A DNA stretch of 64,000 nucleotides from Blattabacterium sp. (Mastotermes darwiniensis) str. MADAR (GTDB lineage Bacteria; Bacteroidota; Bacteroidia; Flavobacteriales; Blattabacteriaceae). Location of the stretch: assembly GCF_000233435.1 (NCBI RefSeq), contig NC_016146.1:325001-389000 (forward strand). The letters are read 5' to 3'. How positions within the stretch are numbered: the stretch's first letter is position 1; every line of letters starts with the position of its first letter. Both the position numbers and the translations under genes were made by a program. The notes beneath the pieces were generated by a model. The model was not told the DNA's origin, did no database searches, and saw only the letters and a list, made by a program, of their open reading frames with translations. This document shows, piece after piece, positions 19,880-30,303 of the stretch.

Positions 19880-21331
19880 TTAAAAAAAACAATTATACAA
19901 AATCCTAACACTCCAAATAATAACCAAAGTCCCTATGAAAAAACACATTATTCTCATAGGTATTTTCCCAGATATTTTCGCTGCTAAAGGAGCAGAAAAT
20001 AAACTCCCAAAAACCAATCCAAGAACTATTTTCCAATAATGTATTCCTAATAAATAAAAAAAGGTAATCGCACTAGAAATAGTCACAAAAAATTCAGATA
20101 AACTGACAGAACCTATTACATATTTTGGTTTTCTTCCTTTTGATATTAAAGTACTTGTCACAAAAGGACCCCATCCTCCACCTACAAAAGAATCTAAAAA
20201 ACCTCCAATTCCAGCAATCCATCCTATTTTTTTTATTTTTATATCTATTTTATTTTTTTTCCATAATACAGAAGTTAGCAATATTTTTGTACCTAAACAA
20301 AAAGTATAAAACCCTAACATAGGTTTTATATAAGAAATATAACTTTCTCCAAATTTAGAAAGAAAAAAAGAACCAATAATAGAACCTATAACTCCTGGAA
20401 TTAATAATATTTTCAATAATTTTTTATTAACGTTTCCCATTCTATAATGACTTAATCCAGATATCCCGCTAGAAAATATTTCTGCAGTATGAATACTAGC
20501 ACTAATAGATGAAATAGGAATCCCTAAGGTAAGCAATATTGTTGTACAAGTAAGTCCATATCCAACCCCTATAGCTCCATCCACAATCTGAGCAAAAAAT
20601 CCAGTAAAAAATAAGTATAAAAAATTTTTATCTAAATATTTTTTAAAAAAAACTGTTAAGAATAAATATCCTACCATTAATAATGGAAGAACTAAAAATA
20701 TTTTTTTGAATTTTTTTTTTCTTTTTTCCTCAAATGAGGTTTCTAACAACCATTTATTTGTTAATTCATTCAGCTTTTTTACTTTAAAATCAAAATTACC
20801 TTGCAATTTTTTCCTTATTTCATACATATTTATCAATGCTTCATTTAATTCATGAGGTAAAACTTCATAAAAAATTTCTTTCAAACGTTTGGCTATAGTA
20901 GGAGATTTCCCATTGGTAGAAATGGCTATTTTTAGATTTCCTTTTTGTACAATGGATCCAAGATAAAAATCACAAAGTTCAGGGACATCAGAAACGTTCA
21001 CCAATTTATGCATTCTTTTTGCATCTCTTTTAATTTTTTCACTTAACATTAAATCATTCACAGCGACAATGATAACATCCATATTTCTTAAATCGGAAGT
21101 TCCATATACTTTTTTAATTAATTTTATAGAAATAAATAGTTTAGCTAATTCATAAACTTTCTGATCAATACGAGATGCTATAAGATTTATCCTTGTATCA
21201 GGATTATTTTGTAATACTGCATTCAATTTTTTTAAAGCAGTTTTTCCACCACCAATAATTAAAAGAGAAATTTTTTCTAACTGTAAAAAAATAGGAAAAA
21301 GTTTATTATTTTCTTTATTTATCTTTATCAT
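19880..21331 (-). CDS. fusion: precorrin-2 dehydrogenase (Met8/CysG-N) + TSUP sulfur transporter
   Basis: The 483-residue protein joins two domains. Residues about 1-200 are a Met8/CysG N-terminal domain: NAD-binding LLIIGGGKTALKKL, VAVNDL with the catalytic-region aspartate, and NVSDVPELCDF / ISTNGKSPTIAKRLKE, as in siroheme synthase. Residues about 210-483 form a TauE/SafE (TSUP) membrane domain of roughly eight segments, with AQIVDGAIGVGYGLT and GWIAGIGGFLDSFVGGGWGPF as the paired half-site motifs. It is last in the sulfate-assimilation operon, ten bases after cysI. The dehydrogenase would oxidise precorrin-2 for CysI siroheme. The TSUP part may import sulfate (as proposed for C. glutamicum CysZ) or export sulfite. 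Confidence 0.9.
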   Translation of the reverse strand: MIKINKENNKLFPIFLQLEKISLLIIGGGKTALKKLNAVLQNNPDTRINLIASRIDQKVYELAKLFISIKLIKKVYGTSDLRNMDVIIVAVNDLMLSEKIKRDAKRMHKLVNVSDVPELCDFYLGSIVQKGNLKIAISTNGKSPTIAKRLKEIFYEVLPHELNEALINMYEIRKKLQGNFDFKVKKLNELTNKWLLETSFEEKRKKKFKKIFLVLPLLMVGYLFLTVFFKKYLDKNFLYLFFTGFFAQIVDGAIGVGYGLTCTTILLTLGIPISSISASIHTAEIFSSGISGLSHYRMGNVNKKLLKILLIPGVIGSIIGSFFLSKFGESYISYIKPMLGFYTFCLGTKILLTSVLWKKNKIDIKIKKIGWIAGIGGFLDSFVGGGWGPFVTSTLISKGRKPKYVIGSVSLSEFFVTISSAITFFYLLGIHYWKIVLGLVFGSLFSAPLAAKISGKIPMRIMCFFIGTLVIIWSVRILYNCFF

Positions 21332-21340
21332 TATTCATCA

Positions 21341-23029
21341 TTATATTACCCATTGTTTTCTAATAGAAAAATTACCAAATTTTTCTCCATCCAATTTTTC
21401 TTTTTGAAAACAATTAAAAAATTGATCAAGTTCCTTTAAAATAGAAGATTCATCCATATTTTTCTTGTACAATTTGTTCAAACGTGTTCCCTCAGGATCT
21501 CCTCCCAAATAAAGATTGTATCGTCCATAAGAAACTCCTACAAAACCTATTTCTGCTAAATAAGGACGAGAACACCCATTAGGACATCCTGTCATACGAA
21601 TAATAATCTCTTCTTTTCCTAATTTATATTTATTTAAAATAAATTCTATTTTAGATATCAAATGTGGAAAATAACGTTGTCCTTCAGCTAAAGCTAAAGG
21701 ACATGTGTTAAGAGCCACACAAGCCATAGAATTTTTTCTAATAGAGGAAACATGATTCATATAATTAACAATACCATATTCATCAAGAATAGACTGTATT
21801 GTTTTTTTATTTTTCGCATGAATATCAGTTAACGTAATATTTTGATTACAGGTGAATAAAAAATTACATATTTCATACTCTGCTATCTTTAACAATGCCG
21901 ATTTCAATTTTAAATTGACTCTATCAAAAACTAAACCATTTTCTATAAAAATAGTGTAATTCCATAATTTCATATCATCTTGTATCCAACCAAAATAATC
22001 ACATCTTTCTGTAAAAAAGAATGGTCTCTCTTTTTTTAAAGAAAATCCAATTCTATTTTCCAATTCTTTTTTAAACCATTCTATCCCATAATTATCTATG
22101 GTATACTTTAGACGAGCAAATTTACGATCACTTCTATTGCCATAATCGCGTTGAATTGTTAGAATTTCGTATACTATTCTTAATATTTTTTCTTCAGAAT
22201 CATAAAAACCAATTATTGTTCCTAATCTAGAATAAGTTTTTGAATTCCCATGTGTGGTAGACAAACCCCCTCCAACGGATATATTAAATCCTTTCAATTT
22301 TTTTTTATCAGAATCTATGATAGCTATTAATCCTATATCATTTGCAAATACATCAACATCGTTATTTGGAGGAATTGCTATAGCTATTTTAAATTTTCTA
22401 GGTAAGTAACTTTTTTTATAAATAGGTTCTTTATTTTCTTTTTCAAGAATTTTCTTTTCGTCCAACCATATTTCATAATAGGCTCTTGTTTTTGGAAGAA
22501 ACATTTTACTAATTTTAGAAGCATAAGTCAATATTTTTTTATAATGAGTTCTAGAATATGTACTACATATAACGTTTCTATTAATATCTCCACAAGTAGC
22601 AATAGAATCCAATTTAGAAATATTAAAAAACTGAATAGTCGGTTTAATATTAGATTTTATCAATCCATGTAATTGAATAGTTTGTCTACTAGTTACTTTT
22701 ATAACTCCAGTTGAATTTATTTCTGAAATTTGATGAATAGACAACCATTGTTTAGATTTAATAAAACCACCTGGAATTCTCAAACGAATCATAAAAGAAA
22801 ATAAACGATCCAATTTTTTTTTTGCCCTATATTCTCTTATATCCCTATCGTCTTGTTGATACAATCCATGAAATTTAATTATAATCTGATCCTTATCAGA
22901 AATACCACCAGACAATTCATCCTTCACACTTTCAATAATAGATCCTCGAAGACCTCTGCTTTCTTCTTTAATTTTCTCCTCCATTGTTATTTTATTTGAA
23001 AAACTATCTATTTTCATATTTTCAATCAA
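21341..23029 (-). CDS. cysI: sulfite reductase (NADPH) hemoprotein beta subunit
   Basis: CysI reduces sulfite to sulfide using siroheme coupled to a [4Fe-4S] cluster, with electrons from CysJ. The cluster cysteines are seen as CVALNTC (C-x5-C) and TGCPNGCSRP (C-x3-C). The substrate-side region has TSRQTIQLHG and ATCGDINRNV. The 562 residues are close to E. coli CysI. It is 18 bases after cysJ. A shorter start is possible at the fourth residue (second Met). Confidence 0.96.
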   Translation of the reverse strand: MIENMKIDSFSNKITMEEKIKEESRGLRGSIIESVKDELSGGISDKDQIIIKFHGLYQQDDRDIREYRAKKKLDRLFSFMIRLRIPGGFIKSKQWLSIHQISEINSTGVIKVTSRQTIQLHGLIKSNIKPTIQFFNISKLDSIATCGDINRNVICSTYSRTHYKKILTYASKISKMFLPKTRAYYEIWLDEKKILEKENKEPIYKKSYLPRKFKIAIAIPPNNDVDVFANDIGLIAIIDSDKKKLKGFNISVGGGLSTTHGNSKTYSRLGTIIGFYDSEEKILRIVYEILTIQRDYGNRSDRKFARLKYTIDNYGIEWFKKELENRIGFSLKKERPFFFTERCDYFGWIQDDMKLWNYTIFIENGLVFDRVNLKLKSALLKIAEYEICNFLFTCNQNITLTDIHAKNKKTIQSILDEYGIVNYMNHVSSIRKNSMACVALNTCPLALAEGQRYFPHLISKIEFILNKYKLGKEEIIIRMTGCPNGCSRPYLAEIGFVGVSYGRYNLYLGGDPEGTRLNKLYKKNMDESSILKELDQFFNCFQKEKLDGEKFGNFSIRKQWVI

Positions 23030-23047: not shown

Positions 23048-24715
23048 TTAGTAGACATCCTTTAAATAACGTCCCTCCTCTTTCATTTTTTTTATAAAAA
23101 ATTCTGGAAAATTATATCCACCAACTTGTTCTATTATACGAAATATGGTTTTTTCTACATCTATACTCATAGGCTTTTTATTTCCACAAATGTAGATATA
23201 AGCTCCTTTTTTTCCTATCCATGTAAAAAATTCTTCACGATTTTCCCATATTTTATCTTGTATATATATTTTCTTTTCTTGATCTCTAGAAAAAGCAAGA
23301 CTTACACGATATAAGACCCCATTTTTTTTCCAATTTTGTATTTCTGTCTGATATAAAAAATCAGTGGAAAAATGTTGATCTCCAAAGAAAAGCCAATTTC
23401 TTCCCGTTGCTCCTACAAATTCTCTTTCATATAAAAAAGAACGAAAAGGAGCTATCCCTGTTCCAGGTCCTATAAGAATGATATCTTTATTGTTTTTTGG
23501 TAACTTAAATAAATAATTTTTATGTATATAAAAAGACAAACTATCGCCTTCTTTTAATTTAGAAAGATAATTCGAACAATAACCATATCTATTTTCTCCG
23601 TTAACTTTAAATCTATGACGTGACACTGTAATATGAATTTCAGGATAATGAACTTTAGGGGAAGAAGAAATAGAATAAAATCTAGGTCTTATAGGATCCA
23701 TAATTTCAATTAAATTTTTTAAAAATTTTTTCTTTTTTATAGGAAATTTATTTAATAGATCAAAAAAATTCCACATTCTATCATTAGGTATTTTTTTCCC
23801 TACCAATAAAGAATACTTTCTTAACATATTAATGGACAAACGAAAGATATTCCATTCCTCTTCTAATAAAAGCCTAACTTTTTTCCTCTCCTTTGAATTT
23901 TCAAAGAGATCTTTTTTTTTAAAAAAATCTATAATATTCTGTACTTCATCTACAGGATTTTTAGCTATAACAGCTATAGAATCTCCTGGAAGATAATCGA
24001 ATTTTTCCATTCCATTCTCCATTAAAATTTCAATATGATGAATTTCTTTATTAGAACCTCTTTCTTGATCATTTAAAAGGATATTAGTCAAAATCTTTCC
24101 ATGAATTTTTTTTTTTCTATCTACTTTTTTTTTTTTTAAAATATTTAAAACTTCTGATAACCAATCTTTTGCTTTAAATTCAAAATCAATATCACATTTA
24201 TACAATGGAATAACTCTGCATGCCCCCATTTCATACAAACGTTTATCTAAATCTTCTCCCGCTTTACAAAAAAAAGGATAAGAACGATCTCCTAATGCTA
24301 ATACCCCATACTTCATATTTTCTAAACGAAAATTTAGATTCTTATGAATAAAATTGAAAAAAGATTTAGCGGATGAAGGAGGTTCTCCTTCTCCATGCGT
24401 ACTAATAATTACAAAAAAATAATTCTCTCTTTTTAAATCTAAAAAACGATATTGATCCAAACTTATCAGATTAATTTTAAAATTTTCTTTTTTCATTTTC
24501 TCAACAATGGAAAAAGATAGATTTTTAGCATTTCCTGTTTCTGTTCCATAAACAAGTGTTATTCTTTCTACTTCTTTCCTCAATACTTTCGTTTTTTCTT
24601 CTTCATGAAAAGACGATAAGATTCCAGATATATATCCATATATCCAAATAAGCTCTTCTCTAGAAATATTTTTTATCAATTCTATAAATATTTTATTCTT
24701 TGATTCAGATAACAT
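23048..24715 (-). CDS. cysJ: sulfite reductase (NADPH) flavoprotein alpha subunit
   Basis: CysJ passes electrons from NADPH through FAD and FMN to CysI. The flavodoxin-like FMN domain has TLVYGTETGNAKNLS and STHGEGEPPSSAKSF; the FAD domain has RPRFYSISSSP and RYGYCSNYLS; the NADPH domain has GPGTGIAPFRSFLYER and IYICGNKKPM. At 555 residues it is slightly shorter than the E. coli protein, mainly at the N-terminus. It follows cobA in the operon by 19 bases. Confidence 0.95.
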   Translation of the reverse strand: MLSESKNKIFIELIKNISREELIWIYGYISGILSSFHEEEKTKVLRKEVERITLVYGTETGNAKNLSFSIVEKMKKENFKINLISLDQYRFLDLKRENYFFVIISTHGEGEPPSSAKSFFNFIHKNLNFRLENMKYGVLALGDRSYPFFCKAGEDLDKRLYEMGACRVIPLYKCDIDFEFKAKDWLSEVLNILKKKKVDRKKKIHGKILTNILLNDQERGSNKEIHHIEILMENGMEKFDYLPGDSIAVIAKNPVDEVQNIIDFFKKKDLFENSKERKKVRLLLEEEWNIFRLSINMLRKYSLLVGKKIPNDRMWNFFDLLNKFPIKKKKFLKNLIEIMDPIRPRFYSISSSPKVHYPEIHITVSRHRFKVNGENRYGYCSNYLSKLKEGDSLSFYIHKNYLFKLPKNNKDIILIGPGTGIAPFRSFLYEREFVGATGRNWLFFGDQHFSTDFLYQTEIQNWKKNGVLYRVSLAFSRDQEKKIYIQDKIWENREEFFTWIGKKGAYIYICGNKKPMSIDVEKTIFRIIEQVGGYNFPEFFIKKMKEEGRYLKDVY

Positions 24716-24734: not shown

Positions 24735-25553
24735 CTAATACATAAAATAATTTCTTTTACAAAAAATAGAAGAACTAGAAGAATTCCATTTAAAACACTT
24801 ATAAAGATTTACTATTTTTCCAATAATAACCAAAGAAGGAGATAAAAAATTTCTTTCTATCAAATATTTTTTACAATTATAAAGAGTAGTTGTATACACT
24901 TTTTGCATAGGAGTAGTAGCTTGTTCTATTATGGCGATCAATTTATTCGAATAACAAGATTCCTTTTTCTTAATAAGTATCATAAATTTGTCAATAATAT
25001 AATATAATTTTTTAATACACATATAAAAAACCAAAGTATCCTTAGTTGTTAAGAATTCCTCCCACTGATTAGAATCGATAGAATTTGGATTATGTAATGT
25101 TACGAAACGAACTGAAGAAGCATATCCTCTTGCTGTAAGAGGAATTCCAGTATAAGCAGCTGCGCCTAAAGCTGCAGTAACTCCTGGAATAATCTCATAA
25201 GGAATATGATATTTGTTTAGTTCTATTAATTCATCCATTATATTAGAGAAAATAGAAACATCTCCTCCTTTTAATCGAACTACATATTTTCCTTTTAAAG
25301 CATGATAAACCATTAGATGATTAATACTCTTTTGATTATTTTTAAAAAAGTATTTTTCTTTATGCATTATGGAATCATTATTTTTCCCTACATATAAAAT
25401 CTTTCTTTTTGGATGTAAATATTCATTTACTATTTCAGGACTTACAAGACGATCTACCAATACTATCTCAGATTTTTTCAAATGATTGATAGCTTTAACA
25501 GTAATTAAATCAGGATCCCCAGGTCCTGCTGAAATAAAAATTACTTTTTTCAT
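24735..25553 (-). CDS. cobA: uroporphyrinogen-III C-methyltransferase
   Basis: SUMT methylates uroporphyrinogen III at C2 and C7 with SAM to form precorrin-2, the first step to siroheme. VIFISAGPGDPDLITVKA, ADLV-like VLVDRLVSPEI, VVRLKGGDVSIFS and EIIPGVTAALGAAAYTGIPLTARG are the family motifs. The 272 residues are full length for a stand-alone SUMT. With the Met8 domain of the last gene of the operon it replaces bifunctional CysG. The ferrochelatase step could be done by the Met8 domain, but this is not shown. Expected sole client: CysI. Confidence 0.93.
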   Translation of the reverse strand: MKKVIFISAGPGDPDLITVKAINHLKKSEIVLVDRLVSPEIVNEYLHPKRKILYVGKNNDSIMHKEKYFFKNNQKSINHLMVYHALKGKYVVRLKGGDVSIFSNIMDELIELNKYHIPYEIIPGVTAALGAAAYTGIPLTARGYASSVRFVTLHNPNSIDSNQWEEFLTTKDTLVFYMCIKKLYYIIDKFMILIKKKESCYSNKLIAIIEQATTPMQKVYTTTLYNCKKYLIERNFLSPSLVIIGKIVNLYKCFKWNSSSSSIFCKRNYFMY

Positions 25554-25567
25554 CTCTTCTCTTTAAG

Positions 25568-26488
25568 TTATAAAAAAAGATCTTCTACTGAAAGATATCT
25601 TTCTCCAGAATCATAATTAAACGTAAGTATCCTAGAATCTTTAGAAAAATAAGATAAGTGTTTTTCAATAGACGATAAAACGGCACCTGTAGAAATTCCC
25701 ACTAAAATCCCTTCTTTGATTGCGGTTTTACGAACAAAATAAAATGCTTCTTCTTTAGAAACTAAAAAAGTCCCATCCAATAGATTTACATTTAAAATAG
25801 GAGGAATAAAACCGGCCCCCAAACCTTGTAATGCATGAGGTTTAGCTTCTCTTTCTCCTCCAAATATAACTGGAGATTCAACAGGTTCTACGGAAAATAT
25901 TTTTATATCTGGAAATTTTTTCTTTAATACTTCTCCTATTCCAGTAATATGTCCTCCTGTTCCAACCCCAGTAACAAAATAATCTATTCCATCAGGAAAA
26001 GAATCTATAATTTCCTTTGATGTAATACTCTTATGGATATTTGTATTCGATAAATTTTCAAATTGTTTTGGCATCCAAGAATTAGGAATTTCATGTACCA
26101 ATTCTTCTGCTTTTTTAATGGCTCCTTTCATTCCTTTTTCTCTAGGAGTAAGTACTAATTTTGCTCCAAAAATAGAAAAAATTTTTCTTCTTTCTATACT
26201 CATAGATTCCGGCATTACTAAAATAAGGCTATATCCTTTTACAGTGGAAACCATAGCTAATCCAACTCCAGTATTTCCAGAAGTAGGCTCAATGATTACC
26301 TCTCCTTTTTTTTTAAGAATTCCTTTTTTTTCTGCATCTTCTATCATTGATAACGCAATTCTATCTTTAATACTCCCTCCAGGATTATTCCTTTCTAATT
26401 TCATCCAAACTTTATGAAATGGATATAAACGACGAAGAAGTACATGGGGTGTATTTCCAATAGTTTGCAATATACTCTCTACTTTCAT
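25568..26488 (-). CDS. cysK: cysteine synthase A (O-acetylserine sulfhydrylase)
   Basis: A PLP enzyme that makes cysteine from O-acetylserine and sulfide. [15 protein letters not shown] contains the Schiff-base lysine near residue 41; [12 protein letters not shown] binds the substrate carboxylate, and [10 protein letters not shown] binds PLP phosphate. GVGTGG and GAGFIPP favour CysK over CysM, although some annotations of related genomes may use cysM. The 306 residues are full length. It lies eight bases after cysE, with which it probably forms the cysteine synthase complex. Confidence 0.9.
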
Positions 26489-26496
26489 CTTTTTTT

Positions 26497-27330
26497 TTAT
26501 ATAGTTATTTTTTTTTTCTGAGAAGAACTGTTATTACGAATTTTAATCTCACTAGTTTGAGAAACTATTGAAAAAGGAGGAATACTATGAGTTATCCATA
26601 CGTTCCCTCCAAGTATACTATCATGACCAACTACTGTATCTCCTCCCAAAATTGTTGCACCAGCATAAATAGTTACTTGATCCTCTATAGTAGGATGACG
26701 TTTTTGATCCCTCAACTTTTTATCTACATAAATAGCTCCTAAAGTAACTCCTTGATATATTTTTACCCTATTTCCTATTTTTGTACTAGAACCAATCACT
26801 ATTCCTGTTCCATGATCAATAGCAAAATATTTTCCTATTTCTGCAGAAGCATGAATGTCGACTCCTGTTTTACTATGAGCATATTCTGTAATCAATCTTG
26901 GAAGAATTGGAATCTTTAGTACCCATAATTGATGAGCTATTCGGTATAATGCAGTAGCAAAAAAACCAGGATAGGATAAAAAAATTTCCTCTATTACTGT
27001 TGCAGCAGGATCAAAATCTAATATAGCATTAGCATCCATAATTAATGTTTGATAAATATTGGGAATTTTATCAAAAAAATTTTCTACAAATTTTTTTGAC
27101 TCCCTTTTTTCAAGATTAAAATCAAGAAGAATACAATACAATTTTTGTTGTAATTTTTTATAATTTACTTTTAATGAATCAATCTTTTCTAAAAGACCTT
27201 GATCAGGTGTAAAAAGAAGATGAAATAATTCCTCTACAAATTTTTCGGATGTATTTTTGTTAGGAAATGGATTTTTCCATTTTCTTTTATTATCTTCAAA
27301 TAATCTCTTCAAAAAATCCTTATTAGACAT
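26497..27330 (-). CDS. cysE: serine O-acetyltransferase
   Basis: CysE acetylates serine with acetyl-CoA to O-acetylserine. The N-terminal helical domain includes [12 protein letters not shown]; the C-terminal left-handed beta-helix has hexapeptide repeats, with [31 protein letters not shown] and the active-site histidines (DHGTG, RHPTI). The 277 residues resemble the longer plant/Bacteroidota form. The C-terminal tail ends [10 protein letters not shown], without the terminal Ile-type residue context of E. coli, but does end in Ile as needed for CysK docking. Confidence 0.93.
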
Positions 27331-27348: not shown

Positions 27349-28605
27349 TCATTGAATCATACAAGCAGCTACTGTAGAATAGCTTATTTCATCTATTAAA
27401 ATAGAAGCTCCGTTTTCTTTTATTTTTCTATAAGGGTCATGTGGAATAGGTTTGGATGTATGAATCCTAACTTTCACTAAATCATTTAATCCTGCATTTT
27501 TAGGATACTTTTCCCTTTTCAAAGTATTCACATCTATACGATAAATGATATCTTTAATCAAAATTGGAACTTGAAGACTATGAATTTGAAATAAATATTT
27601 ATTTCCTCGTTTCAATAAACTGTTTTCCATCCAACAAAGAATAGCATCAAATTCTTTAGAAACTATAGGTAAATCATCACTATTTTTTTTTACAAATAAA
27701 TCTCCACGAGAAATATCCATTTCATCCTCTAAATATATAATAATGTTCTGAGGTGCAAATCCCTCTTTAATTTTTTTTCCATTCATTTTTATACATCTAA
27801 TTTTTGTATAAAATTTATGAGGATAAACAATTATATCATCTCCTTCCCTATAAATTCCACTAATAATTTTTCCAGCATATCCACGATCCACTTTATGAAG
27901 ACTACTACATTTGGAACGAATGATATATTGGACTGGAAATCTAGATGGTTCCAAATAAGGTTCTTTATGAATAACAATATTTTCCAATAAAGAAAGAAGA
28001 CTAGGACCAGTATACCATTTCATATTAGAAGATTGATCCACTACATTATCTCCATTTTTTGCACTTATTGGTATTGTATCTATATTCTTTAATCCTACTC
28101 TACAAGCTGTAACTTTATATTGACTAATAATAGCTTTATATATTCTAAAATCATAATTAATCAAATCCATTTTATTAATGGCTAAAATAATTTTTTGAAA
28201 ATTAAGTAATCCAAGAATTAGAGAATGTCTTTGTATTTGTTCTACTACACCATAACGTGCATCAATCAACACAATTGCTAAATCGGCATGAGACGCTCCT
28301 GTTAACATATTTCTAGTATATTGAAAATGACCAGGAGTATCGGCTATAATAAATTTCCTTTTAGATGTAGAAAAATATTTATAAGCTACATCAATAGTTA
28401 TTCCTTGTTCTCTTTCAGCTCGTAATCCATCCGTTAATAACGAAAAATCTATTTTATTTCCTCCATATCTTCTTATACTACTCTTTTCCGTTATTGTAGA
28501 TAATTCATCCATAAGTATAGAATCACTATCATATAACAAACGTCCTATTAGAGTACTTTTTCCATTATCTACACTTCCGGATGTAATAAATCTCAAAGTA
28601 TCCAT
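27349..28605 (-). CDS. cysN: sulfate adenylyltransferase subunit 1 (GTPase)
   Basis: CysN is the EF-Tu-like GTPase that drives CysD to make adenylyl sulfate from ATP and sulfate. Motifs: G1 GSVDNGKSTLIGRLLYDS, switch I EREQGITIDVAY, G3 DTPGH, and G4 NKMD. The 418 residues have the G domain and two beta-barrels but no fused APS kinase (CysC), which agrees with direct use of APS by the APS-type reductase CysH. It follows cysD by 14 bases. Confidence 0.96.
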   Translation of the reverse strand: MDTLRFITSGSVDNGKSTLIGRLLYDSDSILMDELSTITEKSSIRRYGGNKIDFSLLTDGLRAEREQGITIDVAYKYFSTSKRKFIIADTPGHFQYTRNMLTGASHADLAIVLIDARYGVVEQIQRHSLILGLLNFQKIILAINKMDLINYDFRIYKAIISQYKVTACRVGLKNIDTIPISAKNGDNVVDQSSNMKWYTGPSLLSLLENIVIHKEPYLEPSRFPVQYIIRSKCSSLHKVDRGYAGKIISGIYREGDDIIVYPHKFYTKIRCIKMNGKKIKEGFAPQNIIIYLEDEMDISRGDLFVKKNSDDLPIVSKEFDAILCWMENSLLKRGNKYLFQIHSLQVPILIKDIIYRIDVNTLKREKYPKNAGLNDLVKVRIHTSKPIPHDPYRKIKENGASILIDEISYSTVAACMIQ

Positions 28606-28619
28606 GATATGAATTGAAT

Positions 28620-29528
28620 TTAAAAGTATCCTTGTTTTTTTCGGTCTTCCATAGATGTTTCAGATAATGTATCATCAATTCTTGTTTGACCTCTCTCACT
28701 TATTTTTGTATCCAAAAGTTCCTGAATGATTTCTTCTACATTTTTAGCATTTGATTCTATAGCAGCTGTACAAGTCATATCTCCTATAGTACGATAACGT
28801 AAATTTTTTATATGAACTAGCTCATTTGGATTAGCCTTAATTAATTTAGATAAAGCAATCCACTTCCCTTGGAAATTAATAACTTTTCTTTTGTGTGAAA
28901 AATAGATAGAAGGTAATAATATTTTTTCTTTTTGAATATAATTCCAAACATCTAATTCTGTCCAATTACTAATAGGAAAAACTCGCATATTTTCTCCTTT
29001 ATGTATTTTTCCATTATAAATATTCCATAATTCAGGTCTTTGTAATCTTGGTTCCCAACTTCCAAATTCATTTCTAATAGAAAATATTCTTTCTTTAGAT
29101 CTTGCTTTTTCTTCATCTCTACGACCTCCACCAATACAAGCATCGAATTGAAATTCTTCAATTGTATCTATAAGAGTATATGATTGTAAAATATTTCTAT
29201 TAGGAAATCTTCCTTTAGGTTCAGATAAATTTCTACGTAAAATAGTATCCTCTACTTTGCGTATAATAATTTTTTCTCTTATTTTTTTTACAAAAAAATC
29301 TCTAAATTCCAATGTTTCAGGAAAATTATATCCAGTATCTATATGTACCAAAGTAAAAGGAAATTCTCCTGGTTTAAATGCCTTTAAAGCTAAATGAACT
29401 AATAAAACAGAATCTTTTCCTCCAGAAAATAATAAAGCAGGTCTATCAAATTGCCCTGCTGTCTCTCTATAAATATGGATGGTTTCTGATTCTAATTGTT
29501 CCAAATAATTTAAACGATAATTTTTCAT
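28620..29528 (-). CDS. cysD: sulfate adenylyltransferase subunit 2
   Basis: CysD is the catalytic ATP sulfurylase subunit of the PP-loop superfamily. The PP-loop LFSGGKDSVLLVHL is near residues 32-45; LVHIDTGYNFPE, GGGRRDEEKARSKER and NWTELDVWNYI are typical, as is the C-terminal RGQTRIDDTLSETSMEDRK. The 302 residues are full length. It works with CysN and lies 37 bases after cysH. Confidence 0.96.
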   Translation of the reverse strand: MKNYRLNYLEQLESETIHIYRETAGQFDRPALLFSGGKDSVLLVHLALKAFKPGEFPFTLVHIDTGYNFPETLEFRDFFVKKIREKIIIRKVEDTILRRNLSEPKGRFPNRNILQSYTLIDTIEEFQFDACIGGGRRDEEKARSKERIFSIRNEFGSWEPRLQRPELWNIYNGKIHKGENMRVFPISNWTELDVWNYIQKEKILLPSIYFSHKRKVINFQGKWIALSKLIKANPNELVHIKNLRYRTIGDMTCTAAIESNAKNVEEIIQELLDTKISERGQTRIDDTLSETSMEDRKKQGYF

Positions 29529-29565: not shown

Positions 29566-30303
29566 TCATTTTTTATTTTTTTTTAAATGTAATCCACATT
29601 CTTTTTTTACCGAATCGTTCTCCCAATACCAACGACCACTACGATAATTCTCCCCATGCTTAACCGAACGAGTACATGGAGCACATCCTATACTGAAATA
29701 TCCCTTATTATATAAATGATTATAAGGAATATTATATTTTTTAATAATTTTTTCTATTTTTTCTAATTTCCAATCAAGAAGTGGATGGAACTTAATCAAT
29801 TGATTGCTATCATCCCATTCTAAATGATTTAAATTTTTTCTTTCCATAGAATGTTCTGAACGTAGTCCAGTTATCCAAACGGAATTTCCTTTTAAAGCCC
29901 TTCTTAAGGGTTCCACTTTTCGTAAAAAACAGCATTTCATTCTATCCTGAACACTCGCATAAAATGAATTAGGCCCTTTTTTTGATAAAAATTTTTCCAA
30001 TTTATTCGTATCTGGATAATAAGCAGTAATGGAATAATTATAAAACTTATTTGTATCTGACCAAACTTTATAAGTTTCTTCAAAAATTCTTCCTGTATCC
30101 AAAGTAAATATTTTTATAGGAATATTTTCATGTAGAATAAAATGAGAAATTAATTGATCTTCAATATTAAAACTTGTAGAAAAAACTATTTCTCCCGGAA
30201 ATATTTCTGAAAGATTTCTTAATTTTTCTTCTATGGAAGAGGATTCTATTCTTCTCGAAAGATCAGATATATTTATGCATTTTTCATTTTTATTCATTCC
30301 CAT
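29566..30303 (-). CDS. cysH: adenylyl-sulfate (APS) reductase
   Basis: CysH reduces activated sulfate to sulfite with thioredoxin-type thiols. The PP-loop fold has FSTSFNIEDQLI and TLDTGRIFEETY. A CC pair (RMKCCFLRK) and GCAPCTR provide the four cysteines for a [4Fe-4S] cluster, diagnostic for APS rather than PAPS reductases; the catalytic cysteine is in the C-terminal KKECGLH. The 245 residues are normal. First gene of the sulfur operon, with a -7 box at 30343-30350. The start may be the first or third codon. Confidence 0.94.
   Translation of the reverse strand: MGMNKNEKCINISDLSRRIESSSIEEKLRNLSEIFPGEIVFSTSFNIEDQLISHFILHENIPIKIFTLDTGRIFEETYKVWSDTNKFYNYSITAYYPDTNKLEKFLSKKGPNSFYASVQDRMKCCFLRKVEPLRRALKGNSVWITGLRSEHSMERKNLNHLEWDDSNQLIKFHPLLDWKLEKIEKIIKKYNIPYNHLYNKGYFSIGCAPCTRSVKHGENYRSGRWYWENDSVKKECGLHLKKNKK

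Follow-up and report, generated by a model that had tools for sequence, protein, structure and literature searches.

A siroheme-synthesis enzyme domain fused to a TSUP membrane carrier closes the sulfate-assimilation operon of a Blattabacterium genome and recurs across Bacteroidota

In Blattabacterium sp. (Mastotermes darwiniensis) str. MADAR, the last gene of a sulfate-assimilation operon joins a siroheme-synthesis domain of the Met8/CysG-N type to a membrane carrier of the TSUP (TauE/SafE) family. The gene lies at positions 19880..21331, on the minus strand, of the 64,000-nucleotide stretch analysed here, hereafter the window. The encoded protein is probably a bifunctional precorrin-2 dehydrogenase/sirohydrochlorin ferrochelatase (CysG-N/Met8 type) tethered to the cytoplasmic face of a TSUP protein whose part in assimilatory sulfate reduction is most likely the import of sulfate. 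The fusion is a real and widespread combination of known families that is barely described. A text search of open papers returned no description of it.

The open reading frame starts with ATG, encodes 483 amino acids and contains no internal stop. Three Pfam domains score above cut-off within it: the NAD_binding_7 Rossmann domain (residues 14-126; 20954..21292, minus; 74 bits, 1.4e-20), Sirohm_synth_M, which marks the start of the dimerisation/substrate domain (residues 131-152; 20876..20941, minus; 35 bits, 7.3e-9), and the TauE/SafE membrane domain (residues 240-475; 19907..20614, minus; 9.1e-36). The latter match reaches 124.1 bits against a gathering cut-off of 32.6 and covers profile positions 1-235 of 237 (PF01925). 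The N-terminal half is also recognised by TIGR01470 (cysG_Nterm) with 95.7 bits, the curated cut-off being 62.3. The AlphaFold2 model of the protein has a mean pLDDT of 84.8, with values of ~90-98 over most of the Rossmann domain and below 50 in a lysine-rich linker between the halves (residues 196-213; 20693..20746, minus). Within the TSUP domain, sequence comparison delineates an invariant GGGWGP motif (residues 384-389; 20165..20182, minus). The preliminary description of this DNA had proposed a single frame with a Met8/CysG-N domain followed by a full TauE/SafE domain. Its domains and their placement stand, and the motifs that it quoted (GGGKTALKKL, NVSDVPELCDF and STNGKSPTIAKRL) all occur exactly in the frame; it left the strand unstated, and it missed a variant with a dead Met8 domain which is presented below.

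Since many relatives carry Met8 and TSUP as separate genes, one could imagine two genes joined here by an assembly error or a frameshift. This explanation is refuted for practical purposes, because the full frame recurs in five other Blattabacterium genomes (489-506 amino acids from stop to stop, 69-78% identity) and in all of the best 80 loci of a species-genome scan; in other words, the same frame is found in six Blattabacterium genomes and in more than 80 independent assemblies.

The fusion is the ninth and last gene of a minus-strand run identified by profile matches: cysH (29566..30303), cysD (28620..29528), cysN (27349..28605), cysE (26497..27330), cysK (25568..26488), cobA (24735..25553), cysJ (23048..24715), cysI (21341..23029) and the fusion, separated by gaps of 8-37 nt. 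cysJ and cysI encode the flavoprotein and the siroheme-dependent hemoprotein of sulfite reductase. cobA encodes a uroporphyrinogen-III C-methyltransferase without a Met8 domain. The host genome is indeed reduced (590,336 bases in two contigs), and its closest named relative in the species-genome scan is Blattabacterium cuenoti. The fusion thus closes a sulfate-assimilation operon in a reduced genome, as had been proposed. In the same run, CysH displays a CC ... CAPC cysteine pattern and an ECGLH end, which we take to be typical of APS reductases. Given this pattern, the APS-to-PAPS step of Blattabacterium, published as 'missing', may not be missing after all.

The residues that define the enzymatic capacities of this protein family are retained in the N-terminal half. 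We refer to full-length fusions as class A, and 61 of them were checked for catalytic residues: the equivalents of CysG K27, N101, D104, P106 and P133 are kept in every one. The NAD-binding glycines Gly27-Gly28-Gly29 (21245..21253, minus) correspond to CysG G19-G21; the first and the third are invariant in class A and in the truncated class B introduced below, and the middle position is G or A. In CysG, D104 is needed for both dehydrogenation and chelation, the D104A variant being inactive, and P133 forms part of the platform for the tetrapyrrole; both residues have been functionally tested (PMC7018833). Their counterparts are Asp115 (20987..20989, minus) and the platform residue Pro144 (20900..20902, minus), and the combination expected of a bifunctional enzyme is present in 61/61 class A proteins. 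The Bacillus megaterium enzyme SirC, which only dehydrogenates, has a serine at the D104 position (PMC7018833), whereas class A fusions have aspartate throughout and so do not fit a SirC-type monofunctional dehydrogenase. The model of the N-terminal half aligns with CysG over residues 8-177 (VIA Z 18.7, rmsd 2.7) as well as with SirC (Z 16.5) and yeast Met8p (Z 15.3). Because of the conserved residues and these structural matches, the N-terminal half is best read as carrying out both last steps of siroheme synthesis, dehydrogenation and iron insertion. The earlier label 'precorrin-2 dehydrogenase' is probably too narrow in stopping at dehydrogenation.

The trifunctional CysG of Salmonella and E. 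coli likewise couples a Met8-type module, with the same catalytic aspartate and proline, to a pathway partner. However, this partner is the SUMT methyltransferase, which in Blattabacterium is a separate gene, its place being taken by a membrane carrier. Met8p and SirC share the fold and the NAD site with the fusion, but both are stand-alone proteins. A reverse arrangement is encountered at L185:2796-3986 in genome G227, where SUMT (CobA) is fused before the Met8 domain, opposite to the CysG order, in a frame which reaches the contig end.

The 2013 metabolic model of Blattabacterium Bge assigns EC 1.3.1.76 to BLBBGE_281 and the ferrochelatase step (4.99.1.4) to BLBBGE_278 (PMC3819652). Judged by locus-tag order, BLBBGE_281 is probably the fusion orthologue and BLBBGE_278 the siroheme/SUMT gene cobA. 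Its passages on these genes mention neither the fusion nor the TSUP half. The ferrochelatase activity fits the fusion better than cobA, since the window cobA has a TP_methylase domain only (Pfam).

The guess that similar fusions exist in flavobacteria proved correct and too modest, as a search for the domain pair and its neighbours revealed a spread over Bacteroidota, many free-living members included. All of the best 80 loci of the species-genome scan encode the full fusion (473-557 amino acids); most come from Chitinophagaceae, Rufibacter or further Bacteroidota. Of 345 genomes sampled evenly across the class, 40 have both halves in one frame, three of them on the basis of two pieces in a single frame. 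A NIR_SIR family protein is present in 38 of these 40 genomes versus 54 of the 305 genomes without the fusion. In the 48 named loci that span 17 kb or more, the neighbours of the fusion are homologues of cysI (47/48), cysJ (46/48), cobA (44/48), cysN (33/48), cysD (31/48) and cysH (28/48). As the domain pair and its cys neighbours recur across the sampled Bacteroidota, the component families are old. The G284 region holds a frame of 477 amino acids. One contig (L072), titled as a metagenome-assembled genome of the actinobacterium Williamsia sp., carries a fusion (54% identity) that falls among Chitinophagaceae-like proteins, and is probably mis-binned.

The history of the fusion may not be simple. 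In Chryseobacterium-like genomes (g7, genus inferred), the fused TSUP domains group with unfused TSUPs of the same genus and away from the TSUPs of the remaining fusions (AU p = 0.035), while their Met8 partners cluster with the Met8 domains of those fusions. This discordance hints at a domain swap or a second fusion, a tentative reading because the trees are quick and the branches long.

Natural splits and losses within Blattabacterium provide a view on the dependence between the halves. cysI is intact in 8/49 genomes, only where the fusion or its halves persist: six carry the full fusion, one (G043) a split version and one (G047) lacks the TSUP half. In G043, a poly-A run that differs by a single base separates the gene into two intact frames of 208 and 282 amino acids at the linker. 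Slippage in poly-A runs during transcription is a known effect in symbionts, and the two halves could still be joined by such putative slippage. In G047, cysHDNEK-cobA-cysJI and the Met8 half are all open and the TSUP half is reduced to relics; sulfate may enter there by another route, or the pathway may be dying. In G029, Met8, cysI, cysD and cobA are broken or gone and the TSUP frame is open. Its retention is poor proof of an independent function, since the otherwise invariant GGGWGP motif already reads GGRWGP. Two further genomes (L054 and L055, in G001 and G045) contain half-decayed cys operons in which cysE, cysK and most of cysJ are open while cysI, cobA, cysN and cysH are decaying.

The halves are therefore separable and obligatory coupling is excluded, because G043 has two frames and G047 lost the TSUP half but kept Met8 and the operon. 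The proposal that the fusion physically links siroheme supply to the movement of a sulfur anion holds for the protein itself and fails as a statement of obligatory coupling. One may ask whether the fusion means co-expression only, neighbouring genes having merged with their products acting independently. The G043 split, the G047 loss and the separate Met8 and TSUP genes found within the same cluster in other Flavobacteriales all suit this explanation, which is compatible with the main reading of the two parts. However, the fusion has been retained across Bacteroidota, the Chryseobacterium-like fused TSUP perhaps stems from another TSUP lineage through repeated fusion or swapping, and a dead Met8 domain is still conserved on the carrier in some genomes. 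On balance, we place co-expression alone a little short of an even chance.

These latter proteins form class B, found in six Weeksellaceae-like genomes (genus codes g44 and g33; family inferred). A truncated Rossmann domain and a TSUP domain share an open frame of 432-444 amino acids which follows cysH-cysD-cysN. The catalytic aspartate is replaced by serine or asparagine, counterparts of N101 and K27 are missing, and a deletion has removed the substrate/dimer region that holds the P133 equivalent; only the GGG site remains. TIGR01470 scores of 36-39 bits fall below 62.3. Neither a NIR_SIR protein nor another Met8 was found in these genomes, which are 99-100% complete and include three single-contig assemblies. 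Nevertheless, dN/dS (NG86) over the 98 codons of the Rossmann part is 0.014-0.059 in g44 and 0.10 in g33. On the TSUP tree, class B nests within the fused clade at two places, and the AU test rejects its placement in a single clade (p = 0.001). The enzymatic job of this domain has apparently been lost and the domain itself is still conserved on the carrier.

A dead Rossmann domain kept under strong purifying selection without sulfite reductase suggests a second role unrelated to siroheme; the domain might, for example, gate the TSUP in response to NAD(H) or stabilise it. We regard it as rather improbable, though worth stating, that the fused domain has such a job, with a pseudoenzyme kept apparently independently in two lineages, and that the full fusion may share it. 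A slightly less probable version is that the N-terminal Rossmann domain of the fusion also acts on the carrier, in an NAD(H)-responsive or stabilising manner comparable to that of KTN/RCK domains in TrkA and KefC. The low dN/dS of class B after loss of its catalytic residues agrees with this, and VIA matches to the TrkA and KefC domains reach Z ~11, a level which many Rossmann folds attain equally. Nevertheless, unfused TSUPs of the same pathway dispense with the domain, class B comprises six genomes of two genera only, and a folding constraint in the fused protein may explain the low dN/dS.

Clusters of cysHDN with TSUP (L186, L065 and L070, of class B, and L033-L039) also occur where no siroheme sulfite reductase was found, namely in class B genomes and in G053/G067 of g7. 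Thirteen genomes, either class B or g7 with an unfused TSUP, were scanned for a candidate CapA-like cysteate synthase of the sulfonolipid route (NF053679); 12 have hits of 540-556 bits, and the best hit in G128 reaches 443 bits. It is not decisive as a sulfite sink, because all matches stay below the 600-bit cut-off and are equally present in class A genomes.

The carrier half was considered against the other sulfate transporters of the genus. Genome-wide searches of 49 Blattabacterium genomes recovered SulP in none (0/49) and the sulfate ABC permease family in none (0/49), which extends to the genus the earlier remark that the window shows no CysPUWA-type importer. PiT (PF01384) is present in 49/49, including the 41 without intact cysI. 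It is thus untied to the sulfate pathway and was rejected as a pathway-specific sulfate carrier. Among the families searched (SulP, sulfate ABC permease, PiT and TSUP), TSUP alone follows the pathway and is thus the one candidate sulfate transporter tied to it. Furthermore, unfused relatives of the fusion TSUP adjoin cysH or cysN in 13/13 loci.

A precedent comes from Corynebacterium glutamicum CysZ, which is encoded in a cys operon, is presumed to be a high-affinity sulfate permease and is needed for growth on low sulfate; another, low-affinity route exists in that species as well (PMC1266029). CysZ is classed as a TSUP protein (PMC5840216). Like the fusion TSUP, this membrane protein has its gene among cysHDN and the sulfite reductase genes, and the location that characterises it, a TSUP gene with an assimilatory sulfate reduction operon, is the one observed here. 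It is unfused, and the likeness noted here is one of classification and context. No solved structure matching the TSUP part by sequence was found. The AlphaFold2 TSUP domain (window 19907-20614) can be superposed on BacA/UppP over 231 residues (VIA Z 12.0, rmsd 4.5); a fold relation is conceivable, although in a helical protein such a match may mean a similar arrangement only.

Taken with the missing SulP and ABC permeases, the pathway-independent PiT, the tracking of the pathway by TSUP, the cys neighbours and the CysZ precedent make sulfate import the preferred function, and the TSUP half most likely brings sulfate in. A sulfite exporter would instead vent sulfite when siroheme or reductant runs short, the tether balancing sulfite production and use. 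The family name and TauE-type exporters within the family (cited in PMC5840216) speak for export, as does the persistence of cysHDN-TSUP operons in genomes with no siroheme sulfite reductase, in which sulfite would accumulate if it had no outlet; loss of TSUP in G047 with its reduction genes intact would be easy if TSUP were a mere valve. The Cupriavidus necator sulfite exporter TauE shares PF01925 with the fusion, but it stands alone, belongs to organosulfonate degradation and transports outward. Since another pathway-specific sulfate importer was not found in pathway-keeping genomes and C. glutamicum offers uptake by a TSUP-classed protein of a cys operon, we deem export unlikely, although it is the main rival to import.

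Under the preferred reading of the fusion as siroheme enzyme and sulfate importer, CobA would make precorrin-2, which the N-terminal half would oxidise with NAD+ before inserting iron. The resulting siroheme would pass to CysI, and the TSUP half would supply the anion for reduction by CysDN-CysH-CysIJ. With both modules encoded in the terminal operon gene, fusion would fix their co-production, and direct substrate coupling would not be needed.

Little is known about how Bacteroidota take up sulfate or what most TSUP proteins transport, and the fusion assigns both of its halves to one pathway. It singles out a possible sulfate importer in genomes throughout the phylum, and the fusion gene is suggested as the place of the ferrochelatase step in the Blattabacterium model. 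Lastly, class B offers a direct test of whether a transporter can recruit a biosynthetic enzyme as a regulatory or structural domain.
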